This document shows, in pieces, positions 17,477-33,154 of a DNA stretch of 64,000 nucleotides. The stretch is taken from the NCBI RefSeq assembly GCF_004339575.1, contig NZ_SMFV01000002.1, forward strand, positions 186,001 to 250,000, written 5' to 3'. This stretch comes from Phorcysia thermohydrogeniphila (lineage in GTDB: Bacteria > Aquificota > Aquificia > Desulfurobacteriales > Desulfurobacteriaceae). The position numbers were made by a program, and so were the translations under genes. The notes below the pieces were generated by a model, which was not told the origin of the DNA, did no database searches, and was given only the letters and a program-made list of their open reading frames with translations. Position 1 is the stretch's first letter. Every line of letters begins with the position of its first letter.

Positions 17477-17591
17477 TTCTCCTCTCCTTTTGCTTGGTAG
17501 TTTGTTAGCTAAAGTTTAGGAAATATAGCTTAATCTTCCTAAAATCAAGGTGGTAAGGTTGTATAATTGCAAAAGTCTAATCTTTCGGAGT

Positions 17592-18383
17592 ATGTGGGTG
17601 TTAGTAGGGTTATTTGAGGCAGTAGGTAGGAAAGTCATAGAATTTTTGGAGTTTTGGGGGAAATGGTTCATCATTTCGCTAAAGGCGCTCTTTCTTGCTT
17701 TCAGAAGGCCGTTTCGGTTCAAACGTTACATTTACTACTTGGCTACCATAGGAACCGACTCTCTGCCGGTTATAGCTATAACCTCCTTCTTTACTGGAGG
17801 CGTTATCGCCCTTGAAACTTACGTTGCCTTTCACCGCTTTAACGCTGAGTATATGATAGGAGGGGTTGTTGCAATTTCAATGGCGAGGGAGCTGGCCCCT
17901 GTTCTCTCTGCCCTGCTTGTAACTGCCCGCGCCGGCTCTGCCATGGCTGCAGAGATTGGAACGATGAAGGTTACAGAGCAGATAGACGCCTTAGAGATGA
18001 TGGCCGTTAATCCAATCAAGTATCTAATTACCCCGAGAGTTTACACGACTGTCATAGCTGTTACAGTTCTCACGCTAATCTCTGACATCGTTGGTTATAT
18101 CGGCGGGTACATCATCAGCATTTACCTGTTTGATGTTAATAAAACCCTTTACATGCGCTATACCGAAATCCTTGCGGAGATGGATGACGTTTACCATGGC
18201 CTGATAAAGGCGGCGATTTTCGGTTTCCTCATTGCGACCATAAGCTGTCTTTACGGGTACTCTACAAGGGGTGGTGCAAAGGGTGTTGGAGAGTCCACAA
18301 CGAGGGCGGTTGTTACGTCTTCAATAGCGATTCTCATATTTGACTACCTGATAACCTACGTAATGAGGCTCTTTGACCTATGA
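17592..18383 (+). CDS. mlaE: MlaE-family ABC permease (copy A)
   Basis: About 263 residues forming the inner-membrane permease of an MCE-type lipid transporter. It has an amphipathic N-terminal helix (GLFEAVGRKVIEFLEFWGKW) and about five membrane helices. The conserved MlaE segments TGGVIALETYVAFHRF and ARELAPVLSALLVTARAGSAMAAEIGTM are present. I use ATG 17592; GTG 17598 is better spaced from the GGAG at 17587. A TATAAT at 17562-17567 is a plausible -10. The end overlaps mlaF by ATGA. Confidence 0.92.
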   Translation: MWVLVGLFEAVGRKVIEFLEFWGKWFIISLKALFLAFRRPFRFKRYIYYLATIGTDSLPVIAITSFFTGGVIALETYVAFHRFNAEYMIGGVVAISMARELAPVLSALLVTARAGSAMAAEIGTMKVTEQIDALEMMAVNPIKYLITPRVYTTVIAVTVLTLISDIVGYIGGYIISIYLFDVNKTLYMRYTEILAEMDDVYHGLIKAAIFGFLIATISCLYGYSTRGGAKGVGESTTRAVVTSSIAILIFDYLITYVMRLFDL

Positions 18384-19144
18384 AAGAGGCAATAGTTGTT
18401 GAAGATCTCAAAAAATCTTTCGGGACAAATGTTGTCCACGATGGGGTTTCTTTTACTGTTTACGACGGTGAGATCTTTGTCGTAATAGGGCCTTCGGGAA
18501 CGGGTAAGAGTGTTCTCCTAAAGCAGATTGCGGGACTACTCAAGCCAGATTCTGGGAAAATCTACGTTTACGGAATGGATGTCCTGAATTTAAGTGGCGA
18601 GGAGTTTATAAGATTTCGGGAAACCTTAACTTACGTGTTCCAGAATGGAGCTCTCTTTGATTCCCTTCCCGTCTGGTACAACGTTGCCTTCTACCTTGTA
18701 GAGAAGAAGGGGATTAAAGAGAAGGAAGCTAGGGAGAAGGCTAAGTATTACCTATCTCTCCTTGGCCTTTCCGGAACGGAAGATTTGTACCCTTCAGAGC
18801 TCTCAGGCGGTATGAGAAAGAGGGTTGCCGTTGCGAGGGCTCTCTGTATGAACCCAAGGTGTATCCTCTTTGACGAGCCAACTTCCGGCCTTGACCCGGT
18901 TATGACGGCCGTTCTTGACAGGCTCATACTGAAACTGAAGAAGGAGTTTGGGAAGACCTGCGTTGTTGTCAGCCACGATATGACTAGCGCTTTTAGGATA
19001 GCTGACAGGATAGCGATTCTGTGGGGCGGTAAAGTTGTTGAGATAGGGACGCCTGAAGAAATAAAGAAGTCAGAAAACCCTGTCGTCAAACAGTTTATAA
19101 ACGGTGAGCCTGATGGACCGATAACAGCGATGATGGAGCTATAA
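18380..19144 (+). CDS. mlaF: MlaF-family ABC ATPase (copy A)
   Basis: 254 residues; powers the MlaE permease. Walker A is GPSGTGKSVLLK, the Q-loop YVFQNGALFDSLPV is characteristic of MlaF, the signature is LSGGMRKRVAVARAL, and Walker B is CILFDEPTSGLDPV. It is sandwiched between mlaE (4-base overlap) and the MCE gene (2-base gap), so subunits should be made together. No MlaB-like STAS gene is present. Confidence 0.95.
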   Translation: MKEAIVVEDLKKSFGTNVVHDGVSFTVYDGEIFVVIGPSGTGKSVLLKQIAGLLKPDSGKIYVYGMDVLNLSGEEFIRFRETLTYVFQNGALFDSLPVWYNVAFYLVEKKGIKEKEAREKAKYYLSLLGLSGTEDLYPSELSGGMRKRVAVARALCMNPRCILFDEPTSGLDPVMTAVLDRLILKLKKEFGKTCVVVSHDMTSAFRIADRIAILWGGKVVEIGTPEEIKKSENPVVKQFINGEPDGPITAMMEL

Positions 19145-19146
19145 AG

Positions 19147-20730
19147 ATGGGGAAGCTAACATTAGAGGCCAAAGTAGGGGCGTTTGTCATTCTGAGTTTT
19201 ATAGGGATTGGCGTTATAGCTACAACTCTTGAACCTTTAAAGTTCAGAGGAGAAAGAGCTGACCAGCGTTATTTCCTTACGTTTAAAAACGTTGCAGGTC
19301 TTGAAAAGGACGCTCCCGTAAGGATTGCTGGCGTAACTGTTGGAAAGGTTTCAAGCGTAAATATGAAGGATGGAAAGGCAATAGTTGAAATCGTCTTCTT
19401 TAAACCTGTCAAGCTTTACGCCAACGCTAAAGCCCGTATAGAAACTATGGGACTGATGGGAGAGAAGTACATTGAGCTTGACCCCGGAAGTCCTGAAGCC
19501 CCAGAACTCCCGCCCGGCTCAAAGCTGGAGAATACGCAGGCTTCGGTCTCAATGGATGAGGTAATGACTTCTTTAAACGAGCTCATTGCCAAGTTTAACG
19601 GAGCTCTCCTTACACCGGACGGAAAGAACAGACTTGCCATTCTTATGGAAAGGATTACCCAGCTCTCTGAAAGCGTTGATAGAGCTGTTAACAACATTAA
19701 TTCTTTGATTGAAGAGAACAGGAAGTCCATTGGGGAAATCGTTAAAAACCTTCTTGCCCTCTCTTCGGTGCTGAAGGAGGAACTTCCACAAGTGATGGAC
19801 AACGTCAACACCTTGACAAGTCAACTTTCAGAGATCGCCTTAGAGAACAGGGAGGATATAAGGAAGACAGTTATTAACCTTAAACTACTGGCAGAGAGAG
19901 TTCCCAAGATAGTAGAAAGAATAGATGGCCTTGTGATAGGAGTTGAAAGGCTTCTGAACGAGCAGAACCTTCAGAATATAGATGAAGCTGTTGAGAACAT
20001 GAAAGAGATATCGGCGGAGCTCAGAGAGCTCTTGGCAAAGGTGAATAAAGGGGAAGGAACTGTTGGTAAGCTCTTTAACGATGAGGAGCTCTATAATAGC
20101 CTTTCAAAAACTGCCAAGACCTTAGGGAAACTTGCCGACAAGTTTGAAGAGACAAGAACCTACATTGGTTTTAGGGGAGACGTAAACTTAAGGACTGGAG
20201 ACAGCAGAGGAGTCTTCTCGCTAAAAATAGTTCCTTCGGCTGACCACTACTACCTCCTTGAAGTTGTGGGTGACTCACAAGGTAAGCTTGATAGGAAAAC
20301 CTACTACATTAACTACGGCAGTTCGGTTGAGAAGCGAGAGGAGTTGGAAACCGATTACAGGACCGAATTTACTTTACAGTATGCGAGGGTCTTTGAGGAC
20401 AGGTGGATACATCCCGGAGGGAAGTTTGTCTTAAGGGGCGGCCTAAAAGAGAGTACCGGCGGTGTTGGACTGGACTACCTTTACAGCGATAGGCTTACCT
20501 TTTTCTCTGACCTTTGGGATACCGGCAGGAAGGATAAAAACGGCGAGGATATTGAGCCTCACCTGAGGGTAGGAATTAAGTATAGGCTTGGTGACAACTG
20601 GTTTATCTACGGCGGAGGAGATGAGCTCCTCTACAGTAAGTGGAGAGGGTTTTTCGTTGGAGCGGGAGTTATGTTTGGAGATGACGACATTAAATACCTT
20701 CTTGGGTCTCTTCCCGGAGGTATAAAGTGA
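19147..20730 (+). CDS. MCE-domain protein with coiled coil and C-terminal beta-barrel-like region (copy A)
   Basis: At 527 residues this is about three times the length of MlaD. An N-terminal membrane anchor (residues ~8-25) is followed by one MCE domain (~40-118). A long heptad-rich helical stretch runs from ~130 to 335. The final ~190 residues alternate polar and hydrophobic residues with Gly and aromatics (RTYIGFRGDVNLR, HLRVGIKYRLGDNWFIYGGG, GFFVGAGVMFGDDD), as in outer-membrane beta-barrels. I infer a protein that spans the periplasm from MlaEF to the outer membrane for lipid transport. Confidence 0.85.
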   Translation: MGKLTLEAKVGAFVILSFIGIGVIATTLEPLKFRGERADQRYFLTFKNVAGLEKDAPVRIAGVTVGKVSSVNMKDGKAIVEIVFFKPVKLYANAKARIETMGLMGEKYIELDPGSPEAPELPPGSKLENTQASVSMDEVMTSLNELIAKFNGALLTPDGKNRLAILMERITQLSESVDRAVNNINSLIEENRKSIGEIVKNLLALSSVLKEELPQVMDNVNTLTSQLSEIALENREDIRKTVINLKLLAERVPKIVERIDGLVIGVERLLNEQNLQNIDEAVENMKEISAELRELLAKVNKGEGTVGKLFNDEELYNSLSKTAKTLGKLADKFEETRTYIGFRGDVNLRTGDSRGVFSLKIVPSADHYYLLEVVGDSQGKLDRKTYYINYGSSVEKREELETDYRTEFTLQYARVFEDRWIHPGGKFVLRGGLKESTGGVGLDYLYSDRLTFFSDLWDTGRKDKNGEDIEPHLRVGIKYRLGDNWFIYGGGDELLYSKWRGFFVGAGVMFGDDDIKYLLGSLPGGIK

Positions 20731-21344
20731 TAGTGGTAATAGACTACGGTATGGGAAACCTGCGTAGCGTGAGCAAGGCATTAGAGTTTGTAGGGGCAGA
20801 GGTTGTTGTTACAGACGACCCTAAGAAGCTAAAACGTGCAAGTGGGCTTGTCCTTCCCGGCGTTGGAGCTTTTAGGGATGCCGTTCGTAACCTGAAAGAA
20901 AGAGGACTTTGGGAGGGTATAGTAGAGGAGGTTGAAAAAGGAAAGCCACTCCTTGGAATCTGCCTTGGGCTTCAGCTCCTCTTTGAAAAGAGTTACGAGT
21001 TTGGAGAGACAGAGGGTTTTGGCTTTATAGAGGGGGAAGTTGTTAGGTTTGAGCTTCCAAAGGAATTTAAAATCCCCCATATGGGCTGGAATCAGGTTTA
21101 CGTGAAGAAGGAGTCGGAGCTCCTAAAAGGCATAAGAGAAGGAGAGTTCTTCTACTTTGTTCACTCCTACTACGTAAAGCCCCGCAGTGAATCTGTAAAG
21201 CTTACCGAGACCGATTACGGTATTTACTTTACGTCTGCCGTTGAGAAGGACAACATTTTTGCAACCCAGTTTCATCCAGAAAAAAGTCAAAAGGCTGGCT
21301 TAAAGCTCCTAAAGAACTTCTGTGAAATTGTTAGGAAAAGCTGA
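20727..21344 (+). CDS. hisH: Imidazole glycerol phosphate synthase glutaminase subunit (copy A)
   Basis: 205 residues; class I glutamine amidotransferase that feeds ammonia to HisF in histidine synthesis. The nucleophile motif is GICLGLQLLFEKS, and the catalytic His/Glu are in ATQFHPEKSQ. Start GTG 20727 lies in the mlaD 3' end behind CGGAGG. HisF is not nearby, so hisH has been inserted into an unrelated operon. Confidence 0.95.
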   Translation: MIVVIDYGMGNLRSVSKALEFVGAEVVVTDDPKKLKRASGLVLPGVGAFRDAVRNLKERGLWEGIVEEVEKGKPLLGICLGLQLLFEKSYEFGETEGFGFIEGEVVRFELPKEFKIPHMGWNQVYVKKESELLKGIREGEFFYFVHSYYVKPRSESVKLTETDYGIYFTSAVEKDNIFATQFHPEKSQKAGLKLLKNFCEIVRKS

Positions 21345-21360
21345 GGATGGGGGGTATAGA

Positions 21361-21765
21361 ATGAAAAAGCTTAGGGCTGGTTTCACTCTCATAGAGCTCA
21401 TGATTGTAATCGTTATACTCGGTCTCCTCGCTGCTTTGGTCGCTCCAAAGTTCTTAAAGAGTGGAGAGGAAGCAAAGGTTACGACGACTCAGGTTCAGAT
21501 GAAGAACGTTGAACAGGCGTTAAAGCTCTATAAACTTCACAACTCCGTTTACCCTACGACTGAGCAGGGCTTAAAAGCACTTGTTGAAAAGCCTGAAACG
21601 GAGCCCGTTCCCAAGAACTGGAAAGGGCCTTACATGGATGAAGTCCCGAAGGACGCTTGGGGCAACGAGTTTATTTACATTTCTGATGGCAAACATTTTA
21701 CCCTTATCTCTCCCGGCCCTGACGGTGAAGAGGGAACAGAGGACGACATAAAGGTGAGCAAGTAA
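21361..21765 (+). CDS. gspG: Type II secretion major pseudopilin GspG (copy A)
   Basis: 134 residues. The type III signal MKKLRAG/FTLIELM has the prepilin-peptidase site after Gly7 and Glu at +5, followed by a hydrophobic helix. The C-terminal GspG domain has YPTTEQGLKAL, GPYMDE, DAWGNEF, and the Ca-binding-like SPGPDGEEGTEDD. It would polymerise into the secretion pseudopilus. No other gsp gene is adjacent. The ATG follows GGATGGGGGG. Confidence 0.92.
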   Translation: MKKLRAGFTLIELMIVIVILGLLAALVAPKFLKSGEEAKVTTTQVQMKNVEQALKLYKLHNSVYPTTEQGLKALVEKPETEPVPKNWKGPYMDEVPKDAWGNEFIYISDGKHFTLISPGPDGEEGTEDDIKVSK

Positions 21766-22478
21766 TGGTTATATACGGCGTTAACCCTGTAGCTGAGGCG
21801 GTAAGGGCTGGATATCCCATCCTTAAGGTTTTTATTGAGGAAGGTTTTAAGGACAGGGAAAAGGTTCTTCCCCTCCTTAAAAAGAGGGGCGTTAAGGTTG
21901 TAAAGGCCGGTAAGAAGAAACTATTGGCCTTGGCAAAGACTGAAAAGCATCAGGGAATAGTTGCTGTTGTCTCCCCAGTAGAGCCTGCAGACTTTGGGGA
22001 GCTCCTTGACATGACGATTTCAACTAATGGCTGTCTCCTCTTCCTTGACAGGATAGAGGACCCCCACAACCTTGGGGCAATCTTCCGCTCTGCCGACGCC
22101 TTTGGAGTTACTGGAATTGTCCTACCGAAGGATAGGAGTGCCAGCATTACAGAAACCGTCGTTAAGGCATCAACGGGAGCTGTTTTCTATGTTCCCTTTG
22201 CCGTTGTTGGGAGTTTTGTCAACGCCCTTAGGGAGTTTAAGGAGGCAGGGGGCTGGCTCATTGGACTTGAGGCCGGTGGGAAGAGCGTAGCTTCCTACCA
22301 GTTCCCTTTTCCCCTCGGGCTTGTAGCCGGTTCTGAAGGAAAGGGAATTTCAAGGAGCGCCCTAAAACAGCTTGATGATGTTGTCTCTATTCCAATGAGG
22401 GGACACGTTAATTCCCTCAACGTCTCTAATGCTGTAGCGATAGGATTATATTTAGTATCCCAACAACAAGGCACTTGA
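21765..22478 (+). CDS. rlmB: 23S rRNA 2'-O-ribose methyltransferase, TrmH/RlmB family (copy A)
   Basis: 237-residue SPOUT methyltransferase. An N-terminal substrate-binding domain (IYGVNPVAEAV) is followed by the knot motifs LDRIEDPHNLGAIFRSADAFG, VAGSEGKGIS and IPMRGHVNSLNVSNAVAI. The family methylates G2251 of 23S rRNA. Start overlaps the gspG stop (TAATG). Exact target site is inferred from family. Confidence 0.9.
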   Translation: MVIYGVNPVAEAVRAGYPILKVFIEEGFKDREKVLPLLKKRGVKVVKAGKKKLLALAKTEKHQGIVAVVSPVEPADFGELLDMTISTNGCLLFLDRIEDPHNLGAIFRSADAFGVTGIVLPKDRSASITETVVKASTGAVFYVPFAVVGSFVNALREFKEAGGWLIGLEAGGKSVASYQFPFPLGLVAGSEGKGISRSALKQLDDVVSIPMRGHVNSLNVSNAVAIGLYLVSQQQGT

Positions 22479-22488
22479 AGGAGGAAAG

Positions 22489-22887
22489 ATGGAAAACCTT
22501 AAGGGAAAACTCGTTTTTATTCAGACGGCAGGTGGAGATAGCGTTATACCCTCTTCTGGGATTATTGGCGTTATTGAGGATGTTACGCCGGAGTACGTGA
22601 AGCTAAAGGATGCAGGTGTCTTTGCTCTCCTTCCAACGACAAAGGGAGCTCAGGCGACGATTATGCCCTTAGACCCAACTGCAAATGAGCCGGTTGAGGC
22701 CTACATACTGAAAAGCCAGATAGTTGCAATTATTCCTGTTGGTGACAGGTCAAGGCTTAAGGAGTTCCACCAGCAGTTTAAGGCGGCAGCTGCCGGAATA
22801 GAGCTTGCCTCTCCGGGCTCTATAGACCTTTCAAAGATAAAGGAGTTTCCAAAAGGTGGTGGTAAAGGAGGATTATCCCTTACGTGA
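22489..22887 (+). CDS. Conserved hypothetical protein (copy A)
   Basis: 132 residues, not recognised. The first ~85 residues look like a small beta-rich fold (KGKLVFIQTAGGDSVI, GIIGVIEDVTPEYVKLKDAG), reminiscent of Sm-like barrels but without a convincing motif. The rest is Ala- and Gly-rich with no signal or membrane segment. An AAGGAGG site precedes the ATG. It sits between rlmB and an NtrB-type kinase, overlapping the latter by GTGA. Confidence 0.7.
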   Translation: MENLKGKLVFIQTAGGDSVIPSSGIIGVIEDVTPEYVKLKDAGVFALLPTTKGAQATIMPLDPTANEPVEAYILKSQIVAIIPVGDRSRLKEFHQQFKAAAAGIELASPGSIDLSKIKEFPKGGGKGGLSLT

Positions 22888-23888
22888 AAGGTGAGGATAT
22901 CCTCTTTTCAATCCCCTTCCCGGTTGCCATAACCGACGGGGAGGGGAGGATTACTAACGTCAACCAGAAGTTTGAGATACTCGTAAACAGGTCGTTTAAG
23001 TACCTTGAAGGAAAGAAACTCTCTTCCTTTTTCAGGAGAGCTCCCGATATAGATAGAAAAATATCAGAGGCTTTTTCTAACCTCGTTGAAGTTTTAGGTT
23101 TTAAGGACGGCCAATACTTCTTGAACTTTGCTCCCTTTTTTATTTCCTCAGAGGTAAAAGGGGTCATAGTTGTCGTTCAGCCAGCTCCAGAGAGTCCCTT
23201 TGAGAAGGACATAGTTGCCTTCCTTAAGGGGCTTTCCCACGAGATAAGGAATCCTCTAAGTGGGATAAAGGGAGCTGCGAAGTGTTTAAAGGAGCTTAAG
23301 CTCTATGACGAGGAACTTGTGTCTGTCCTTATAGAGGAGACGGAGCGTATAGAGAGGCTGTTAAATAACGTCGTTAAGAGCTTTGACTTTTCGGTTCTGA
23401 ACTTAAAAGAGGTGAATATCCATAAGATTATTCAGTTGGTCGTTAAGCTCTTTGAGGCTGAGTTGAGGGAGAGTGGCGTTAACGTTGTGTACGACTTTGA
23501 CCCCTCTCTCCCGGAGATTCTACTTGACCCTGATAGAATCACTCAGGCCCTCATTAACGTCTTTAAGAATGCTCTTGAAGCAGTTACGGAGTCTTCCAGA
23601 AAGGAGGTAAGGATAGAGACAGGTTACGCTATTCATCCCTCTGGATTCATATTTATAAGGGTCAAAGATTCGGGTGTTGGTATGAGCGAGGAAGAGCTTG
23701 CCAACCTGTTTCTTCCCTTCTACACCACAAAGGAAAAGGGAAGTGGTCTTGGAGCTTTTATTACTAACGAGATAGTGAGAAGGCACGGTGGAGAGATAAG
23801 AGTAAAGAGCGAGAAAGGGAAGGGCACGGAAGTAACAATACTTTTGCCGATGAAGAGGAGTGATGGCAAGGATACTAATAGCCGATGA
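22884..23888 (+). CDS. NtrB-type sensor histidine kinase (copy A)
   Basis: 334-residue soluble kinase, the likely phosphodonor for the adjacent NtrC-like regulator. An N-terminal PAS domain ([20 protein letters not shown]) is followed by a HisKA domain with the phospho-acceptor in [16 protein letters not shown]. The HATPase has its N box ([11 protein letters not shown]), G1 (VKDSGVGMS) and G2 ([13 protein letters not shown]) boxes. Start is GTG. It overlaps ntrC by about 26 bases. Cytoplasmic PAS sensing suggests an intracellular signal; nitrogen is only a guess. Confidence 0.9.
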
Positions 23889-24585
23889 TGAAAGGAGCAT
23901 AAGGTTAGTACTCAGGAAGTACCTCCAGTCTCAGGGGCACGAGGTTCTTGAGGTTGAGGACGGCCAGAGGGCTTTGGAGATTTTAAAGAGCTCTCCAGTT
24001 GACGTTGCCTTTGTTGACATAAAAATGCCGGCTAAGAGTGGCTTAGAGATACTGGACGAGGTTAAAGAGGTTCCCATAGTAATCCTTACCGCCTACGGGA
24101 CTATGGACTACACCGTTTCTGCAATGGAAAAGGGTGCTGTTGACTACATAACAAAGCCTTTTTCCTTTGAAGAGATAAAGGAGATTCTGGATAAGGTTCT
24201 CTCTTCCCACTCTCAAGGGGTGGAAACGGCTGAGGCTTCCGAGGAGATAGTCGGAACGAGCCGTAAAATGCAGGAGGTCTTTAAACTTGTAGGTAGGGTA
24301 GCCAAGAGCGACGTTACTGTTTTAATAACCGGTGAAAGTGGCACTGGGAAAGAGCTGATAGCCAAGGCCATTCATAAGTATTCGGACAGAAAAGACAAGC
24401 CCTTCCTCGCCGTTAACTGTGCTGCTCTTCCGCCTAACCTCCTTGAGGCGGAGCTCTTTGGCTATGAGAGAGGAGCCTTCACAGGGGCAGTCTCCTCAAA
24501 GAAGGGACTTTTTGAGCAGGCAAATGGAGGGACGCTCTTCCTTGTCCTTGTGCCTTCCGAATTTCTTGATGAGCTCTCCGGCTGA
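23863..24585 (+). pseudogene. Truncated NtrC-type sigma-54 activator (copy A, cut at duplication junction)
   Basis: 240 residues against 456 for the intact copy at 31086. It keeps the receiver (Asp in FVDIKMP, Lys in TKP), Walker A (GESGTGKE) and the sigma-54-contacting GAFTGA loop. It is cut just after NGGTLFL. Thirteen foreign residues from antisense lysS follow before the stop. Walker B, sensor regions and the DNA-binding HTH are missing, so it cannot activate transcription. It could still be phosphorylated and compete with the intact protein. Confidence 0.93.
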
Positions 24586-24699
24586 TGCTGTTACGTTGTA
24601 GTTGTATGCGTAAGGTTCATAACCGAGCTCCTTAAGTTTTTGAGCCTTTTCTTTCCTCTGTTCAACTATCTTCTGCTCAAGGCTTCTCTCCTCAGCCAT
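24545..24699 (-). pseudogene. lysS 5' fragment (duplication by-product)
   Basis: The first ~52 codons of lysS with its start and upstream region, cut in the N-terminal domain after RHKDKEE. The frame runs on into antisense ntrC sequence to a stop at 24496, giving about 67 residues. No catalytic part remains. If the copied lysS promoter is active, transcripts would run antisense into truncated ntrC and the ntrB-like gene of copy A. Confidence 0.93.
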
Positions 24700-24814
24700 T
24701 TCTCCTCTCCTTTTGCTTGGTAGTTTGTTAGCTAAAGTTTAGGAAATATAGCTTAATCTTCCTAAAATCAAGGTGGTAAGGTTGTATAATTGCAAAAGTC
24801 TAATCTTTCGGAGT

Positions 24815-25606
24815 ATGTGGGTGTTAGTAGGGTTATTTGAGGCAGTAGGTAGGAAAGTCATAGAATTTTTGGAGTTTTGGGGGAAATGGTTCATCATTTC
24901 GCTAAAGGCGCTCTTTCTTGCTTTCAGAAGGCCGTTTCGGTTCAAACGTTACATTTACTACTTGGCTACCATAGGAACCGACTCTCTGCCGGTTATAGCT
25001 ATAACCTCCTTCTTTACTGGAGGCGTTATCGCCCTTGAAACTTACGTTGCCTTTCACCGCTTTAACGCTGAGTATATGATAGGAGGGGTTGTTGCAATTT
25101 CAATGGCGAGGGAGCTGGCCCCTGTTCTCTCTGCCCTGCTTGTAACTGCCCGCGCCGGCTCTGCCATGGCTGCAGAGATTGGAACGATGAAGGTTACAGA
25201 GCAGATAGACGCCTTAGAGATGATGGCCGTTAATCCAATCAAGTATCTAATTACCCCGAGAGTTTACACGACTGTCATAGCTGTTACAGTTCTCACGCTA
25301 ATCTCTGACATCGTTGGTTATATCGGCGGGTACATCATCAGCATTTACCTGTTTGATGTTAATAAAACCCTTTACATGCGCTATACCGAAATCCTTGCGG
25401 AGATGGATGACGTTTACCATGGCCTGATAAAGGCGGCGATTTTCGGTTTCCTCATTGCGACCATAAGCTGTCTTTACGGGTACTCTACAAGGGGTGGTGC
25501 AAAGGGTGTTGGAGAGTCCACAACGAGGGCGGTTGTTACGTCTTCAATAGCGATTCTCATATTTGACTACCTGATAACCTACGTAATGAGGCTCTTTGAC
25601 CTATGA
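24815..25606 (+). CDS. mlaE: MlaE-family ABC permease (copy B)
   Basis: Identical to the copy at 17592, including about 115 bases of upstream sequence with the TATAAT at 24785-24790, so it has its own promoter region. Lipid-transport permease; same start ambiguity (GTG 24821). Confidence 0.92.
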   Translation: MWVLVGLFEAVGRKVIEFLEFWGKWFIISLKALFLAFRRPFRFKRYIYYLATIGTDSLPVIAITSFFTGGVIALETYVAFHRFNAEYMIGGVVAISMARELAPVLSALLVTARAGSAMAAEIGTMKVTEQIDALEMMAVNPIKYLITPRVYTTVIAVTVLTLISDIVGYIGGYIISIYLFDVNKTLYMRYTEILAEMDDVYHGLIKAAIFGFLIATISCLYGYSTRGGAKGVGESTTRAVVTSSIAILIFDYLITYVMRLFDL

Positions 25607-26367
25607 AAGAGGCAATAGTTGTTGAAGATCTCAAAAAATCTTTCGGGACAAATGTTGTCCACGATGGGGTTTCTTTTACTGTTTACGACGGTGAGATCTT
25701 TGTCGTAATAGGGCCTTCGGGAACGGGTAAGAGTGTTCTCCTAAAGCAGATTGCGGGACTACTCAAGCCAGATTCTGGGAAAATCTACGTTTACGGAATG
25801 GATGTCCTGAATTTAAGTGGCGAGGAGTTTATAAGATTTCGGGAAACCTTAACTTACGTGTTCCAGAATGGAGCTCTCTTTGATTCCCTTCCCGTCTGGT
25901 ACAACGTTGCCTTCTACCTTGTAGAGAAGAAGGGGATTAAAGAGAAGGAAGCTAGGGAGAAGGCTAAGTATTACCTATCTCTCCTTGGCCTTTCCGGAAC
26001 GGAAGATTTGTACCCTTCAGAGCTCTCAGGCGGTATGAGAAAGAGGGTTGCCGTTGCGAGGGCTCTCTGTATGAACCCAAGGTGTATCCTCTTTGACGAG
26101 CCAACTTCCGGCCTTGACCCGGTTATGACGGCCGTTCTTGACAGGCTCATACTGAAACTGAAGAAGGAGTTTGGGAAGACCTGCGTTGTTGTCAGCCACG
26201 ATATGACTAGCGCTTTTAGGATAGCTGACAGGATAGCGATTCTGTGGGGCGGTAAAGTTGTTGAGATAGGGACGCCTGAAGAAATAAAGAAGTCAGAAAA
26301 CCCTGTCGTCAAACAGTTTATAAACGGTGAGCCTGATGGACCGATAACAGCGATGATGGAGCTATAA
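25603..26367 (+). CDS. mlaF: MlaF-family ABC ATPase (copy B)
   Basis: Identical 254-residue ATPase to the copy at 18380, with intact Walker A, Q-loop, LSGGMRKR signature and Walker B. Same 4-base overlap with mlaE. Confidence 0.95.
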   Translation: MKEAIVVEDLKKSFGTNVVHDGVSFTVYDGEIFVVIGPSGTGKSVLLKQIAGLLKPDSGKIYVYGMDVLNLSGEEFIRFRETLTYVFQNGALFDSLPVWYNVAFYLVEKKGIKEKEAREKAKYYLSLLGLSGTEDLYPSELSGGMRKRVAVARALCMNPRCILFDEPTSGLDPVMTAVLDRLILKLKKEFGKTCVVVSHDMTSAFRIADRIAILWGGKVVEIGTPEEIKKSENPVVKQFINGEPDGPITAMMEL

Positions 26368-26369
26368 AG

Positions 26370-27953
26370 ATGGGGAAGCTAACATTAGAGGCCAAAGTAG
26401 GGGCGTTTGTCATTCTGAGTTTTATAGGGATTGGCGTTATAGCTACAACTCTTGAACCTTTAAAGTTCAGAGGAGAAAGAGCTGACCAGCGTTATTTCCT
26501 TACGTTTAAAAACGTTGCAGGTCTTGAAAAGGACGCTCCCGTAAGGATTGCTGGCGTAACTGTTGGAAAGGTTTCAAGCGTAAATATGAAGGATGGAAAG
26601 GCAATAGTTGAAATCGTCTTCTTTAAACCTGTCAAGCTTTACGCCAACGCTAAAGCCCGTATAGAAACTATGGGACTGATGGGAGAGAAGTACATTGAGC
26701 TTGACCCCGGAAGTCCTGAAGCCCCAGAACTCCCGCCCGGCTCAAAGCTGGAGAATACGCAGGCTTCGGTCTCAATGGATGAGGTAATGACTTCTTTAAA
26801 CGAGCTCATTGCCAAGTTTAACGGAGCTCTCCTTACACCGGACGGAAAGAACAGACTTGCCATTCTTATGGAAAGGATTACCCAGCTCTCTGAAAGCGTT
26901 GATAGAGCTGTTAACAACATTAATTCTTTGATTGAAGAGAACAGGAAGTCCATTGGGGAAATCGTTAAAAACCTTCTTGCCCTCTCTTCGGTGCTGAAGG
27001 AGGAACTTCCACAAGTGATGGACAACGTCAACACCTTGACAAGTCAACTTTCAGAGATCGCCTTAGAGAACAGGGAGGATATAAGGAAGACAGTTATTAA
27101 CCTTAAACTACTGGCAGAGAGAGTTCCCAAGATAGTAGAAAGAATAGATGGCCTTGTGATAGGAGTTGAAAGGCTTCTGAACGAGCAGAACCTTCAGAAT
27201 ATAGATGAAGCTGTTGAGAACATGAAAGAGATATCGGCGGAGCTCAGAGAGCTCTTGGCAAAGGTGAATAAAGGGGAAGGAACTGTTGGTAAGCTCTTTA
27301 ACGATGAGGAGCTCTATAATAGCCTTTCAAAAACTGCCAAGACCTTAGGGAAACTTGCCGACAAGTTTGAAGAGACAAGAACCTACATTGGTTTTAGGGG
27401 AGACGTAAACTTAAGGACTGGAGACAGCAGAGGAGTCTTCTCGCTAAAAATAGTTCCTTCGGCTGACCACTACTACCTCCTTGAAGTTGTGGGTGACTCA
27501 CAAGGTAAGCTTGATAGGAAAACCTACTACATTAACTACGGCAGTTCGGTTGAGAAGCGAGAGGAGTTGGAAACCGATTACAGGACCGAATTTACTTTAC
27601 AGTATGCGAGGGTCTTTGAGGACAGGTGGATACATCCCGGAGGGAAGTTTGTCTTAAGGGGCGGCCTAAAAGAGAGTACCGGCGGTGTTGGACTGGACTA
27701 CCTTTACAGCGATAGGCTTACCTTTTTCTCTGACCTTTGGGATACCGGCAGGAAGGATAAAAACGGCGAGGATATTGAGCCTCACCTGAGGGTAGGAATT
27801 AAGTATAGGCTTGGTGACAACTGGTTTATCTACGGCGGAGGAGATGAGCTCCTCTACAGTAAGTGGAGAGGGTTTTTCGTTGGAGCGGGAGTTATGTTTG
27901 GAGATGACGACATTAAATACCTTCTTGGGTCTCTTCCCGGAGGTATAAAGTGA
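26370..27953 (+). CDS. MCE/coiled-coil/beta-barrel-like protein (copy B)
   Basis: Identical 527-residue protein to the copy at 19147: membrane anchor, one MCE domain, long helical region and barrel-like C-terminus. Doubling this gene with mlaEF would raise dosage of the complete transporter. Confidence 0.85.
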   Translation: MGKLTLEAKVGAFVILSFIGIGVIATTLEPLKFRGERADQRYFLTFKNVAGLEKDAPVRIAGVTVGKVSSVNMKDGKAIVEIVFFKPVKLYANAKARIETMGLMGEKYIELDPGSPEAPELPPGSKLENTQASVSMDEVMTSLNELIAKFNGALLTPDGKNRLAILMERITQLSESVDRAVNNINSLIEENRKSIGEIVKNLLALSSVLKEELPQVMDNVNTLTSQLSEIALENREDIRKTVINLKLLAERVPKIVERIDGLVIGVERLLNEQNLQNIDEAVENMKEISAELRELLAKVNKGEGTVGKLFNDEELYNSLSKTAKTLGKLADKFEETRTYIGFRGDVNLRTGDSRGVFSLKIVPSADHYYLLEVVGDSQGKLDRKTYYINYGSSVEKREELETDYRTEFTLQYARVFEDRWIHPGGKFVLRGGLKESTGGVGLDYLYSDRLTFFSDLWDTGRKDKNGEDIEPHLRVGIKYRLGDNWFIYGGGDELLYSKWRGFFVGAGVMFGDDDIKYLLGSLPGGIK

Positions 27954-28567
27954 TAGTGGTAATAGACTACGGTATGGGAAACCTGCGTAGCGTGAGCAAG
28001 GCATTAGAGTTTGTAGGGGCAGAGGTTGTTGTTACAGACGACCCTAAGAAGCTAAAACGTGCAAGTGGGCTTGTCCTTCCCGGCGTTGGAGCTTTTAGGG
28101 ATGCCGTTCGTAACCTGAAAGAAAGAGGACTTTGGGAGGGTATAGTAGAGGAGGTTGAAAAAGGAAAGCCACTCCTTGGAATCTGCCTTGGGCTTCAGCT
28201 CCTCTTTGAAAAGAGTTACGAGTTTGGAGAGACAGAGGGTTTTGGCTTTATAGAGGGGGAAGTTGTTAGGTTTGAGCTTCCAAAGGAATTTAAAATCCCC
28301 CATATGGGCTGGAATCAGGTTTACGTGAAGAAGGAGTCGGAGCTCCTAAAAGGCATAAGAGAAGGAGAGTTCTTCTACTTTGTTCACTCCTACTACGTAA
28401 AGCCCCGCAGTGAATCTGTAAAGCTTACCGAGACCGATTACGGTATTTACTTTACGTCTGCCGTTGAGAAGGACAACATTTTTGCAACCCAGTTTCATCC
28501 AGAAAAAAGTCAAAAGGCTGGCTTAAAGCTCCTAAAGAACTTCTGTGAAATTGTTAGGAAAAGCTGA
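27950..28567 (+). CDS. hisH: HisH glutaminase (copy B)
   Basis: Identical to the copy at 20727 with intact Cys nucleophile and His/Glu. Only the glutaminase subunit is doubled, since no hisF lies in the unit. Confidence 0.95.
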   Translation: MIVVIDYGMGNLRSVSKALEFVGAEVVVTDDPKKLKRASGLVLPGVGAFRDAVRNLKERGLWEGIVEEVEKGKPLLGICLGLQLLFEKSYEFGETEGFGFIEGEVVRFELPKEFKIPHMGWNQVYVKKESELLKGIREGEFFYFVHSYYVKPRSESVKLTETDYGIYFTSAVEKDNIFATQFHPEKSQKAGLKLLKNFCEIVRKS

Positions 28568-28583
28568 GGATGGGGGGTATAGA

Positions 28584-28988
28584 ATGAAAAAGCTTAGGGC
28601 TGGTTTCACTCTCATAGAGCTCATGATTGTAATCGTTATACTCGGTCTCCTCGCTGCTTTGGTCGCTCCAAAGTTCTTAAAGAGTGGAGAGGAAGCAAAG
28701 GTTACGACGACTCAGGTTCAGATGAAGAACGTTGAACAGGCGTTAAAGCTCTATAAACTTCACAACTCCGTTTACCCTACGACTGAGCAGGGCTTAAAAG
28801 CACTTGTTGAAAAGCCTGAAACGGAGCCCGTTCCCAAGAACTGGAAAGGGCCTTACATGGATGAAGTCCCGAAGGACGCTTGGGGCAACGAGTTTATTTA
28901 CATTTCTGATGGCAAACATTTTACCCTTATCTCTCCCGGCCCTGACGGTGAAGAGGGAACAGAGGACGACATAAAGGTGAGCAAGTAA
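28584..28988 (+). CDS. gspG: Type II secretion pseudopilin GspG (copy B)
   Basis: Identical to the copy at 21361, with prepilin cleavage site after Gly7 and the C-terminal GspG domain. Its ATG follows the same GGATGGGGGG site. Confidence 0.92.
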   Translation: MKKLRAGFTLIELMIVIVILGLLAALVAPKFLKSGEEAKVTTTQVQMKNVEQALKLYKLHNSVYPTTEQGLKALVEKPETEPVPKNWKGPYMDEVPKDAWGNEFIYISDGKHFTLISPGPDGEEGTEDDIKVSK

Positions 28989-29701
28989 TGGTTATATACG
29001 GCGTTAACCCTGTAGCTGAGGCGGTAAGGGCTGGATATCCCATCCTTAAGGTTTTTATTGAGGAAGGTTTTAAGGACAGGGAAAAGGTTCTTCCCCTCCT
29101 TAAAAAGAGGGGCGTTAAGGTTGTAAAGGCCGGTAAGAAGAAACTATTGGCCTTGGCAAAGACTGAAAAGCATCAGGGAATAGTTGCTGTTGTCTCCCCA
29201 GTAGAGCCTGCAGACTTTGGGGAGCTCCTTGACATGACGATTTCAACTAATGGCTGTCTCCTCTTCCTTGACAGGATAGAGGACCCCCACAACCTTGGGG
29301 CAATCTTCCGCTCTGCCGACGCCTTTGGAGTTACTGGAATTGTCCTACCGAAGGATAGGAGTGCCAGCATTACAGAAACCGTCGTTAAGGCATCAACGGG
29401 AGCTGTTTTCTATGTTCCCTTTGCCGTTGTTGGGAGTTTTGTCAACGCCCTTAGGGAGTTTAAGGAGGCAGGGGGCTGGCTCATTGGACTTGAGGCCGGT
29501 GGGAAGAGCGTAGCTTCCTACCAGTTCCCTTTTCCCCTCGGGCTTGTAGCCGGTTCTGAAGGAAAGGGAATTTCAAGGAGCGCCCTAAAACAGCTTGATG
29601 ATGTTGTCTCTATTCCAATGAGGGGACACGTTAATTCCCTCAACGTCTCTAATGCTGTAGCGATAGGATTATATTTAGTATCCCAACAACAAGGCACTTG
29701 A
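28988..29701 (+). CDS. rlmB: RlmB-type rRNA methyltransferase (copy B)
   Basis: Identical 237-residue SPOUT enzyme to the copy at 21765, with the same TAATG overlap with gspG. Confidence 0.9.
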   Translation: MVIYGVNPVAEAVRAGYPILKVFIEEGFKDREKVLPLLKKRGVKVVKAGKKKLLALAKTEKHQGIVAVVSPVEPADFGELLDMTISTNGCLLFLDRIEDPHNLGAIFRSADAFGVTGIVLPKDRSASITETVVKASTGAVFYVPFAVVGSFVNALREFKEAGGWLIGLEAGGKSVASYQFPFPLGLVAGSEGKGISRSALKQLDDVVSIPMRGHVNSLNVSNAVAIGLYLVSQQQGT

Positions 29702-29711
29702 AGGAGGAAAG

Positions 29712-30110
29712 ATGGAAAACCTTAAGGGAAAACTCGTTTTTATTCAGACGGCAGGTGGAGATAGCGTTATACCCTCTTCTGGGATTATTGGCGTTATTGA
29801 GGATGTTACGCCGGAGTACGTGAAGCTAAAGGATGCAGGTGTCTTTGCTCTCCTTCCAACGACAAAGGGAGCTCAGGCGACGATTATGCCCTTAGACCCA
29901 ACTGCAAATGAGCCGGTTGAGGCCTACATACTGAAAAGCCAGATAGTTGCAATTATTCCTGTTGGTGACAGGTCAAGGCTTAAGGAGTTCCACCAGCAGT
30001 TTAAGGCGGCAGCTGCCGGAATAGAGCTTGCCTCTCCGGGCTCTATAGACCTTTCAAAGATAAAGGAGTTTCCAAAAGGTGGTGGTAAAGGAGGATTATC
30101 CCTTACGTGA
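29712..30110 (+). CDS. Conserved hypothetical protein (copy B)
   Basis: Identical to the unrecognised 132-residue protein at 22489: beta-rich first part, Ala/Gly-rich end, no signal peptide. Confidence 0.7.
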   Translation: MENLKGKLVFIQTAGGDSVIPSSGIIGVIEDVTPEYVKLKDAGVFALLPTTKGAQATIMPLDPTANEPVEAYILKSQIVAIIPVGDRSRLKEFHQQFKAAAAGIELASPGSIDLSKIKEFPKGGGKGGLSLT

Positions 30111-31111
30111 AAGGTGAGGATATCCTCTTTTCAATCCCCTTCCCGGTTGCCATAACCGACGGGGAGGGGAGGATTACTAACGTCAACCAGAAGTTTGAGA
30201 TACTCGTAAACAGGTCGTTTAAGTACCTTGAAGGAAAGAAACTCTCTTCCTTTTTCAGGAGAGCTCCCGATATAGATAGAAAAATATCAGAGGCTTTTTC
30301 TAACCTCGTTGAAGTTTTAGGTTTTAAGGACGGCCAATACTTCTTGAACTTTGCTCCCTTTTTTATTTCCTCAGAGGTAAAAGGGGTCATAGTTGTCGTT
30401 CAGCCAGCTCCAGAGAGTCCCTTTGAGAAGGACATAGTTGCCTTCCTTAAGGGGCTTTCCCACGAGATAAGGAATCCTCTAAGTGGGATAAAGGGAGCTG
30501 CGAAGTGTTTAAAGGAGCTTAAGCTCTATGACGAGGAACTTGTGTCTGTCCTTATAGAGGAGACGGAGCGTATAGAGAGGCTGTTAAATAACGTCGTTAA
30601 GAGCTTTGACTTTTCGGTTCTGAACTTAAAAGAGGTGAATATCCATAAGATTATTCAGTTGGTCGTTAAGCTCTTTGAGGCTGAGTTGAGGGAGAGTGGC
30701 GTTAACGTTGTGTACGACTTTGACCCCTCTCTCCCGGAGATTCTACTTGACCCTGATAGAATCACTCAGGCCCTCATTAACGTCTTTAAGAATGCTCTTG
30801 AAGCAGTTACGGAGTCTTCCAGAAAGGAGGTAAGGATAGAGACAGGTTACGCTATTCATCCCTCTGGATTCATATTTATAAGGGTCAAAGATTCGGGTGT
30901 TGGTATGAGCGAGGAAGAGCTTGCCAACCTGTTTCTTCCCTTCTACACCACAAAGGAAAAGGGAAGTGGTCTTGGAGCTTTTATTACTAACGAGATAGTG
31001 AGAAGGCACGGTGGAGAGATAAGAGTAAAGAGCGAGAAAGGGAAGGGCACGGAAGTAACAATACTTTTGCCGATGAAGAGGAGTGATGGCAAGGATACTA
31101 ATAGCCGATGA
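30107..31111 (+). CDS. NtrB-type sensor histidine kinase (copy B)
   Basis: Identical PAS-HisKA-HATPase kinase to the copy at 22884. This copy directly precedes the only intact regulator gene, so it is the one co-expressed with a working partner. Confidence 0.9.
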   Translation: MKGEDILFSIPFPVAITDGEGRITNVNQKFEILVNRSFKYLEGKKLSSFFRRAPDIDRKISEAFSNLVEVLGFKDGQYFLNFAPFFISSEVKGVIVVVQPAPESPFEKDIVAFLKGLSHEIRNPLSGIKGAAKCLKELKLYDEELVSVLIEETERIERLLNNVVKSFDFSVLNLKEVNIHKIIQLVVKLFEAELRESGVNVVYDFDPSLPEILLDPDRITQALINVFKNALEAVTESSRKEVRIETGYAIHPSGFIFIRVKDSGVGMSEEELANLFLPFYTTKEKGSGLGAFITNEIVRRHGGEIRVKSEKGKGTEVTILLPMKRSDGKDTNSR

Positions 31112-32456
31112 TGAAAGGAGCATAAGGTTAGTACTCAGGAAGTACCTCCAGTCTCAGGGGCACGAGGTTCTTGAGGTTGAGGACGGCCAGAGGGCTTTGG
31201 AGATTTTAAAGAGCTCTCCAGTTGACGTTGCCTTTGTTGACATAAAAATGCCGGCTAAGAGTGGCTTAGAGATACTGGACGAGGTTAAAGAGGTTCCCAT
31301 AGTAATCCTTACCGCCTACGGGACTATGGACTACACCGTTTCTGCAATGGAAAAGGGTGCTGTTGACTACATAACAAAGCCTTTTTCCTTTGAAGAGATA
31401 AAGGAGATTCTGGATAAGGTTCTCTCTTCCCACTCTCAAGGGGTGGAAACGGCTGAGGCTTCCGAGGAGATAGTCGGAACGAGCCGTAAAATGCAGGAGG
31501 TCTTTAAACTTGTAGGTAGGGTAGCCAAGAGCGACGTTACTGTTTTAATAACCGGTGAAAGTGGCACTGGGAAAGAGCTGATAGCCAAGGCCATTCATAA
31601 GTATTCGGACAGAAAAGACAAGCCCTTCCTCGCCGTTAACTGTGCTGCTCTTCCGCCTAACCTCCTTGAGGCGGAGCTCTTTGGCTATGAGAGAGGAGCC
31701 TTCACAGGGGCAGTCTCCTCAAAGAAGGGACTTTTTGAGCAGGCAAATGGAGGGACGCTCTTCCTTGACGAGATAGGGGAGCTCCCCTTGGAACTCCAAG
31801 CAAAGCTTTTAAGGGTTCTTCAAGAGAAGGAAATTCGCAGAATTGGCGGGGAAAGAACCATAAAAGTTGACGTAAGGATAGTTGCGGCAACAAACAGAAA
31901 CCTTGAGGAAGAGGTCAAGAAAGGAAACTTTAGAGAAGACCTTTTCTTCCGGCTTAACGTAGTAACGATAGAGCTCCCCCCTCTTAGAGAGAGGAGGGAG
32001 GACATCATACCCCTTGCGCTCTACTTTATCAGGAAGTTTTCAAGGGAGTTCAAGCTGCCGGTTAAGGAGCTTACAGAGAGGGCAGTTGAATGGCTCATGA
32101 GCTACGAGTTTCCGGGAAACGTAAGGGAGCTTGAAAACATGATACTGAGGGCTATGATTGTTTCTCCTACTAACGTTATAGACGTTGAGGACCTTAAACC
32201 TTCTCTAACTTCCCGAAAGACTCCCTCCTTTGAGGAGGCGATAAAGAACTTTGTCGTTGAAGTTTTTACCTTGGAGCAGAAAGAAAAGAGCAACCTTTAC
32301 GAGCTCGTTGTAAAGAGTGCAGAGAAGATACTGATTTCGGAAGTACTACGTTTCTGTGGCTTTAACCAGCAAAGGGCAGCTTCTGTTCTCGGCATCCACA
32401 GGAACACTCTTAGGAGGAAGATAAAGGAGTTCGGAATAGAAGTGGGAAAGGATTGA
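31086..32456 (+). CDS. NtrC-type sigma-54-dependent response regulator (intact)
   Basis: 456 residues. An N-terminal receiver domain has phospho-Asp in FVDIKMP. The AAA+ domain has Walker [19 protein letters not shown] for sigma-54 contact, Walker B LFLDEIGELP, and the R-finger region FREDLFFRLNVV. A Fis-type HTH ends the protein (NQQRAASVLGIHRNTLRRKI). It remodels RpoN holoenzyme at enhancer-dependent promoters; rpoN is in this window at 62443-63726. ATG 31086 is preferred over the adjacent GTG 31083; GAAGAGGAG precedes it. Target genes unknown; I saw no clear -24/-12 promoter in the intergenic gaps I scanned. Confidence 0.94.
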   Translation: MARILIADDERSIRLVLRKYLQSQGHEVLEVEDGQRALEILKSSPVDVAFVDIKMPAKSGLEILDEVKEVPIVILTAYGTMDYTVSAMEKGAVDYITKPFSFEEIKEILDKVLSSHSQGVETAEASEEIVGTSRKMQEVFKLVGRVAKSDVTVLITGESGTGKELIAKAIHKYSDRKDKPFLAVNCAALPPNLLEAELFGYERGAFTGAVSSKKGLFEQANGGTLFLDEIGELPLELQAKLLRVLQEKEIRRIGGERTIKVDVRIVAATNRNLEEEVKKGNFREDLFFRLNVVTIELPPLRERREDIIPLALYFIRKFSREFKLPVKELTERAVEWLMSYEFPGNVRELENMILRAMIVSPTNVIDVEDLKPSLTSRKTPSFEEAIKNFVVEVFTLEQKEKSNLYELVVKSAEKILISEVLRFCGFNQQRAASVLGIHRNTLRRKIKEFGIEVGKD

Positions 32457-32551
32457 TGTATCTCAATTTCTTTTCATCGTAGTATGTTTATATTAAACTT
32501 TGAAGCTTTTAAGAACGTTATACCTATTCTGAAGTTCGGAAGGTCTGATGA

Positions 32552-32809
32552 ATGAAGTACCCCTTTGGTAAGGACAGGAAGGGCAGGATAATACTATGTC
32601 AGGATGGTTCTCCCTTTCTTCCTCAGTATCCCGGGGGAATAGACCCCTCCCGGTGTACTGGGTGCAGGGAGTGCGTGGAGGTATGCCCGCAAGGGTGTAT
32701 AGAACTTCAGGAGATAGAAGGAAAACAGGTAGCAGTTTTAATTAGTTTGGATTTTTGCATAGGCGACGGAATATGCAAGATGATCTGTCCTGAGGATGCT
32801 TTCTTGTGA
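32552..32809 (+). CDS. 4Fe-4S ferredoxin, or N-terminal half of a Sec-containing ferredoxin
   Basis: 85 residues with one classical cluster motif (CTGCRECVEVCP) and a second, irregular set (CIGDGICKMICP). The PFLPQYPGGIDPSRC lead-in resembles nif-type FdxB ferredoxins. CGGAAGG precedes the ATG. The frame ends at TGA 32807-32809. The same frame then continues without interruption into a second ferredoxin-like segment (32831-33154), so TGA may be read as selenocysteine at residue 86 of a 200-residue protein. As a stand-alone gene it would be a small cytoplasmic electron carrier. Confidence 0.8.
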   Translation: MKYPFGKDRKGRIILCQDGSPFLPQYPGGIDPSRCTGCRECVEVCPQGCIELQEIEGKQVAVLISLDFCIGDGICKMICPEDAFL

Positions 32810-32821
32810 GGTATCGGTTGC

Positions 32822-32838
32822 TCCTCCAGTTTGGAGGA
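32822..32838 (+). promoter_or_regulatory. Hairpin 12 bases after the in-frame TGA (SECIS-like)
   Basis: A perfect 7-bp stem TCCTCCA/TGGAGGA closes a 3-base loop GTT. Nineteen bases separate the TGA from the loop, and the loop begins with G. Both agree with general descriptions of bacterial SECIS elements (stem-loop just 3' of UGA, G among the first two loop bases). It is not followed by a T-run, so it is not a typical terminator. It also buries the GGAGGA that could otherwise serve as a ribosome site. Confidence 0.5.
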
Positions 32839-33154
32839 TATAGAGGTTAGGATAGAGGACCTGATTTCTGATGCTGATGGTAACTACGCCTACCTTACGT
32901 TTGGTGGTCACCTTTATACTCCTTTTTTCCTTGAAACGATAGATAGGGAAAAGTGTCAGAACTGTGAACGTTGCCTACAGATGTGCGATACCCGTGGAAT
33001 TGATGATGACGGTAACGTTGTTCCGGCCTTTCCTGAAATCTGTAGCGGCTGTATGCACTGCGTAAATGCTTGTCCTTCACAGAGCGTAAAAGTGCGTCCC
33101 ATTCCCCTTCAGGAAATGATAAAGAGAGTAAAAGCACGGATGAAAAACAAGTAA
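32831..33154 (+). CDS. Second 4Fe-4S ferredoxin segment (FdxB-like), possibly the readthrough product of 32552
   Basis: As a separate gene it would have to start at TTG 32831, inside a hairpin with no ribosome site upstream, and there is no in-frame ATG or GTG before the first cluster motif. That makes independent initiation doubtful. The protein has YTPFFLETIDREKCQNCERC with CX2CX2CX3C, and CSGCMHCVNACP. These resemble nif-specific ferredoxin III and the upstream half, suggesting an internal duplication. It ends two bases before the converging gene at 33157. Confidence 0.65.
   Translation: MEDIEVRIEDLISDADGNYAYLTFGGHLYTPFFLETIDREKCQNCERCLQMCDTRGIDDDGNVVPAFPEICSGCMHCVNACPSQSVKVRPIPLQEMIKRVKARMKNK

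Follow-up and report, generated by a model that had tools for sequence, protein, structure and literature searches.

Background

A 2026 inventory of prokaryotic selenoproteins comprises 119 families, and its Fe-S selenoproteins include HgcB (GVGU), the family NF005503 (UxxC), HdrA (CxxU), a ferredoxin-thioredoxin reductase (CxU) and an Fe-S oxidoreductase (UGH) (PMC13188914). None of the 119 families combines two dicluster domains with a UGxxC motif between them (PMC13188914). Our searches of the literature for a selenocysteine (Sec) ferredoxin, or for selenoproteins from Desulfurobacterium or Thermovibrio, brought up no report, and in the genome paper of T. ammonificans the tRNA alone is mentioned. 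Here we describe a gene from Phorcysia thermohydrogeniphila, a thermophilic hydrogen oxidiser belonging to the Desulfurobacterium group, which is a deep-branching hydrothermal-vent lineage. The gene lies within the 64,000-nucleotide stretch of DNA that was analysed (the window), and its in-frame UGA at codon 86 is very probably decoded as Sec to give one chain of 200 residues. No protein or selenium measurement stands behind this assignment, which draws on sequence evidence only. The protein, referred to here as selenoferredoxin, represents a new family of selenoproteins that relies on an established mechanism and adds an unusual kind, a two-domain ferredoxin, to the roughly 119 prokaryotic families (PMC13188914).

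By motif, the nearest described system is HgcB (NF040864, GVGU), which is also a ferredoxin and carries a G-x-G-C/U element shortly past its second cluster motif. The HgcB profile aligns with residues 31-94 of selenoferredoxin at 51.3 bits, under its curated cut-off of 99, and the GVGC/U element of HgcB appears to align with G-x-x-C90 and not with Sec86. Unlike HgcB, selenoferredoxin has a second ferredoxin domain, has no C-terminal Cys pair and places its Sec four residues ahead of the GxxC cysteine. The partner protein HgcA was found in 0 of the 22 family genomes; given this absence and the score below cut-off, identity with HgcB and a link to HgcA were both rejected. The Fe-S cluster domain selenoprotein NF005503 is likewise a multi-cluster Fe-S protein with one Sec, but the selenoferredoxin motif is UGxxC (UxxxC), the UxxC test is not met, and none of the 25 top-scoring NCBIfam matches is NF005503. 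No NCBIfam model (June 2026) scored above its own cut-off among these 25.

The remaining systems share less with selenoferredoxin. The ferredoxin domain of HdrA, whose Sec form carries CxxU, resembles domain 1 over 56 aligned columns (43% identity, 1.1 A), a fold match that is the only use for which the AlphaFold model of moderate confidence (mean pLDDT 67) was sufficient. However, selenoferredoxin has neither the flavin domain nor the CxxU motif and has only the generic ferredoxin fold in common with HdrA, and the HdrA model NF040770 reached 49 bits against a curated cut-off of 1100, which is not met. The Sec form of ferredoxin-thioredoxin reductase (NF041072, CxU) embodies a common idea, the delivery of ferredoxin electrons to a selenol/thiol pair, but no homology was detected in the profile searches made, and in selenoferredoxin the clusters and the selenol reside in one ferredoxin-type chain. 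An earlier note on this DNA had proposed a candidate selenoprotein ferredoxin, of a type for which it knew no described example. Its candidate is supported by a TGA at the equivalent codon in 19 of 19 homologous copies, and its statement on novelty agrees with the 119-family table (PMC13188914), with the caveat of HgcB, which differs in architecture and Sec position.

Results and discussion

Gene and protein

Translation with TGA as Sec yields a 200-residue frame from ATG 32552 to TAA 33152-33154 with one in-frame TGA, at 32807-32809 (Table 1). Sequence and translation thus bear out the initial observation of two ferredoxin-like segments in one frame split only by this TGA, and the predicted 200-residue product with GIGC directly after Sec86 was recovered. 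In homologs, the position of the Shine-Dalgarno-like element of the window is occupied by AAAGGTG, GGAAGG or a comparable sequence. As a check on chance, we considered every TGA triplet of the window, 2127 over the two strands. Of these, 13 are flanked in frame by at least 60 open codons on each side, and only the one at residue 86 is also followed, at the spacing of a SECIS, by a stem of at least 7 bp whose loop is of the G[G/U] type.

Table 1. Coordinates of selenoferredoxin features and neighbouring genes in the window
Feature	Coordinates	Strand	Basis
Selenoferredoxin gene	32552..33154	+	18 further homologous copies, 57-88% identity, full length across TGA
Sec codon TGA (residue 86)	32807..32809	+	TGA in 19/19 copies
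Shine-Dalgarno-like GGAAGG	32538..32543	+	8 bases 5' of ATG, from sequence
Ferredoxin domain 1 (residues 30-84)	32639..32803	+	Pfam Fer4 / Fer4_7; invariant columns
U-G-x-x-C motif, Sec86 to Cys90	32807..32821	+	aligned homologs
SECIS-like hairpin UCCUCCA-GUU-UGGAGGA, within coding frame	32822..32838	+	fold, covariation, third-position divergence minimum, bSECIS limits
Inter-domain segment DxxGNYAYLTxGGxLYTP (residues 107-124)	32870..32923	+	conserved in alignment
Ferredoxin domain 2 (residues 129-179)	32936..33088	+	Pfam Fer4_21, best stretch 129-178
NtrC-family sigma-54 response regulator	31083..32456	+	directly upstream of gene; family search and synteny
PAS / HisKA / HATPase sensor kinase, paired with NtrC-family regulator	30107..31111	+	family search and synteny
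CRP/FNR-type palindrome TTGATGTATCTCAA	32453..32466	.	9/10 vs TTGAYNNNNRTCAA; 85 bases before ATG

Membership in the [4Fe-4S] ferredoxin domain superfamily is met by the Fer4 score (71.6 bits against a cut-off of 21.1) and by the conserved Cys motifs. Domain 1, which alone forms a complete 2[4Fe-4S]-type ferredoxin fold region, carries CxxCxxCxxxCP followed by CxxDxxCxxxCP, with an invariant Asp72 in place of the second cysteine of the second motif (CIGDGxC). Domain 2 carries CxxCxxCxxxC and CxxCxxCxxxCP with all eight cysteines invariant, so that 16 cluster-type positions, consisting of 15 cluster cysteines and Asp72, are invariant across the protein. The segment between the domains matched no Pfam family in a Pfam scan. 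Gly87 is present in 17 of 18 aligned rows, and UGxxC is found in every copy but one, which has UKxxC. Sec86 and Cys90 are invariant with no replacement seen, which speaks for a catalytic or ligand role.

Coding across the in-frame TGA

The selenoferredoxin gene occurs in 19 copies in 18 of 22 Desulfurobacteriaceae genomes (6 of 7 genera), each of which crosses the TGA, and on inspection the codon equivalent to residue 86 was TGA in every copy and never TAA or TAG. The terminal stops of the same copies vary (13 TAA, 3 TGA and 3 TAG), and an ordinary stop at codon 86 would thus be unlikely to have remained TGA throughout. Two of the copies come from chromosomes assembled in one or two contigs (G009 and G018; 1,541,968 and 1,682,965 bases), and the same TGA is present in a sister metagenome-assembled genome (MAG) in GTDB (Desulfurobacterium sp., L009; 87% identity). 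The homologs therefore give the answer that the earlier note had sought from them at residue 86, with TGA conserved, a single chain and a SECIS-like hairpin at the same place. The contrary outcome that it had named as refuting, two genes with normal starts and TAA or TAG at this position, was not met in any of the 19.

Pairwise divergence at the first, second and third codon positions is 0.20/0.10/0.58 upstream of the TGA and 0.19/0.10/0.59 in residues 98-130. Residues 87-90, which precede any possible restart, show a coding pattern as well (0.31/0.19/0.57). The pN/pS ratio is 0.19 for residues 14-85 and 0.23 for residues 94-190. As judged from these alignment measures, coding constraint and purifying selection run unbroken through the TGA. 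Separately, the second selenoferredoxin copy in one MAG (L027; G008:C129) has an extra in-frame TGA at the otherwise invariant Cys49 codon, which may mean that this copy is decaying, that the bin is mixed, or that the protein has a second Sec.

The SECIS-like hairpin

RNA folding placed a 7-bp stem at 32822-32828 and 32832-32838 with a GUU loop at 32829-32831, starting at the 13th base after the TGA, which confirms the perfect hairpin with a G-first loop 12 bases past the TGA that the earlier note had pointed out. Published limits for bacterial SECIS elements are a loop of 3-9 nt, a stem of 4-16 bp, a G in the first two loop positions, a spacing of 16-37 nt and an energy of at most -7.5 kcal/mol (PMC13188914). 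The predicted hairpin of the window, with a 3-nt GUU loop closed by A-U, 7 bp, a spacing of 19 nt and -10.2 kcal/mol, meets all five when compared with these values (PMC13188914). Scanned against Rfam with gathering thresholds applied, the window gave no match.

Across the copies the hairpin follows the consensus UCCUCC-[A/G]GUUY-GGAGGA, and the third-position divergence of the gene, with a mean of 0.56, falls to its minimum of 0.20 over the six codons from residue 90, where the hairpin lies. Double changes preserve the pairing: the loop is closed by A-U in 8 distinct rows and by G-C in 6 (4 rows have A-C), and one stem pair is flipped from C-G to G-C. In the covariation test, the number of paired cells, the number of cells changed on both sides and the covariation score each exceeded all 500 shuffles and all slid versions of the hairpin; the number of pair types was no higher than in the 500 shuffles. 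In three copies the hairpin is shifted by 3 nt as one unit. Spacing is identical in 16 of the 19 copies and borderline in the other three (L017, L025 and L026), where a 5-nt loop starts 15 nt past the UGA, one under the minimum of 16; this shortfall is removed if an N1-N2 pair closes a 3-nt loop. L015, L025 and L026 have a mismatch at the fifth stem pair. On the evidence of fold and alignment, the hairpin fits the published bacterial SECIS model.

Selenocysteine machinery and distribution

The genome that contains the window encodes SelA (C2:295734-297089, 642.6 bits), SelB (C1:511304-513175, 430 bits) and SelD (C3:171402-172328, 379.6 bits, with its own in-frame TGA for Sec), all above cut-off, and a tRNA-Sec at C4:40516-40606 (84.2 bits against a gathering score of 47; reported by ARAGORN as tRNA-SeC with anticodon TCA). 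With selA, selB, selD and tRNA-Sec all in place, a lack of Sec machinery, which would have refuted the proposal, can be set aside. The set is complete in nearly all family genomes; most of the few absences (such as SelA in G017, or SelB and tRNA-Sec over cut-off in G006) concern assemblies that are incomplete or fragmented. Sec-SelD was found in 21 family genomes, including that of the window, with a near-invariant GGUC-loop SECIS (GCCC-GGUC-GGGC) whose spacing resembles that of the selenoferredoxin hairpin, and it served as an undisputed control from the same family. A Sec-type formate dehydrogenase (FdhA) with the SECIS GCC-GGUCU-GGC is present in two family genomes; none was seen in most of the family genomes, the one studied here included. 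Selenoferredoxin provides Desulfurobacteriaceae with a Sec protein beyond SelD. As a separate observation, four genomes of one genus (G010-G013, genus g4) keep SelA, SelB, SelD and tRNA-Sec and have neither selenoferredoxin nor, at 1e-120, a formate-dehydrogenase-like enzyme.

Selenoferredoxin is present in 6 of the 7 family genera, and the genomes searched yielded no further occurrence. At 1e-14 the remaining 114 genomes of the phylum contained no relatives, at 1e-13 there were no genuine ones among 391 relatives sampled across 261 genera, and plasmids and viral contigs gave none. Two weak out-of-phylum matches (G247 and G384) turned out to fall on the ends of two neighbouring HdrA-like genes and were rejected as relatives. 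A protein scan across GTDB, made with a single query sequence, was insensitive; its patterns were too specific, and the sister MAG was all that it matched. Within the limited sampling of 136 phylum genomes and 391 relatives, no counterpart with Cys at position 86 was found, and the usual Sec/Cys pair test could therefore not be passed. A true absence would be unusual; all known selenoproteins are stated in published work to have Cys homologs (PMC12013277). It is quite conceivable, if still short of an even chance, that selenoferredoxin is a Sec-only family that arose in Desulfurobacteriaceae with no Cys form anywhere, combines Fe-S electron transfer and a selenol/thiol site in one chain, and is among the few users of the Sec machinery. 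Tools that depend on Cys homologs would discard such a protein, and gene callers and standard annotation are expected to break the gene into two pieces.

Alternative readings and proposed function

The TGA could instead end an ordinary 85-residue ferredoxin, with a second ferredoxin gene reinitiating downstream and the GGAGGA arm of the hairpin serving as its ribosome site. That 3' arm does resemble a Shine-Dalgarno sequence and a TTG is present at 32831, but this triplet overlaps the hairpin as the earlier note had remarked, and its view that the downstream part has no credible start of its own is upheld by the homologs. No start codon is conserved among the 18 aligned rows in residues 87-131: residue 94 is TTG or ATG in 7 rows and residue 97 is ATG or GTG in 3, with no other candidates up to residue 131, so reinitiation cannot explain the second half in general. 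Combined with the protein-level constraint on residues 87-90 ahead of any start and the unvarying TGA, this leaves two separate genes very improbable. Still further from acceptance, to the point of being negligible, is a sequencing error, a frameshifted pseudogene or a reassigned TGA; nothing except the presence of the stop speaks for these, and conservation already refutes them. The TGA is shared by 19 copies whose genomes were assembled independently, both of its flanks show a pN/pS of about 0.2, and TGA is the terminal stop of the same gene in three relatives. A dual product is harder to dismiss, although we consider it unlikely: the UGA would act as a stop when selenium is scarce, to give the 85-residue ferredoxin, and as a Sec codon when selenium is present, to give the 200-residue selenoprotein. 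In bacteria generally, decoding of UGA as Sec competes with termination, and the completeness of domain 1 on its own would suit a short form. There is no direct evidence for it, however, and domain 2 and the linker are conserved as strongly as domain 1, which indicates that the long form carries the function. Such a dual product would supplement decoding as Sec and does not exclude it.

Under decoding as Sec, SelB with Sec-tRNA would bind the GU-loop hairpin just 3' of UGA 86 and selenocysteine would be inserted, and the ribosome would complete a single 200-residue chain of two ferredoxin domains and a conserved linker, in which Sec86 and Cys90 lie just where the chain leaves domain 1. The product is predicted to be a soluble redox protein (polyferredoxin) in which a low-potential donor would charge up to four Fe-S clusters, one of them with the invariant Asp for a Cys ligand. 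The clusters would pass electrons singly to the Sec86/Cys90 selenol-thiol pair at the end of domain 1, and this pair may reduce a disulfide, polysulfide or other thiol-reactive substrate; its candidate substrates span thiol, sulfur and metal chemistry, including disulfide, polysulfide, selenite, peroxide and nitrosative species. A role as selenol-thiol reductase is our first choice, but it is inferred from motif reasoning alone and is offered only tentatively. Alternatively, Sec86 may not be a redox-active selenol but could bind an Fe-S cluster through its selenolate, for instance in place of the ligand that is missing at Asp72. The invariant Asp72 at an expected Cys ligand leaves one cluster without an all-Cys set, and Sec86 lies seven residues past the last Cys of domain 1. 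Nevertheless, the residue at the equivalent place in 2[4Fe-4S] ferredoxins is not known to be a ligand, and the co-conservation of Cys90 with Sec86 favours a pair. The AlphaFold model was too weak for distances to be measured. We regard the ligand role as doubtful and less likely than a selenol-thiol reductase.

Genomic context

In each of the ten relatives' contexts read, the gene comes after a PAS sensor kinase and an NtrC-family regulator like those in Table 1, with the regulator directly upstream. Genus g4 has the same neighbourhood, but there the slot after the response regulator is occupied by a leuC-like gene (named by eye from sequence). A sigma-54 promoter was sought because the neighbouring regulator is of NtrC type; the best matches for the gene had 4-5 mismatches and were unconvincing. 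The CRP/FNR-type palindrome overlaps the end of the upstream regulator gene. A perfect 10/10 box, TTGAY-N4-RTCAA, is found in 10 of the 19 homologous upstream regions at 70-86 bases from the start, and the copy in the window has one mismatch; the palindrome is shared by several genera. Such boxes are of the kind bound by CRP/FNR-family regulators and point to redox- or anaerobiosis-linked expression. A CRP/FNR-family redox regulator probably tunes expression through this predicted upstream site, although the binding regulator is unidentified.

Two minor observations concern the upstream region. Positions 17313-24544 and 24536-31767 of the window form a 100% identical direct duplication of 7232 bases with a period of 7223, which was not seen in the contexts of relatives and either arose very recently in tandem or is an artefact of assembly. 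The duplicated unit contains Mla-type transporter genes, hisH, gspG, rlmB, the sensor kinase and the first part of the response regulator, and the regulator of the first duplicate is truncated at the junction. At 29712-30110, a 132-residue protein without a Pfam or NCBIfam match is conserved beside the kinase-regulator pair in all contexts read.
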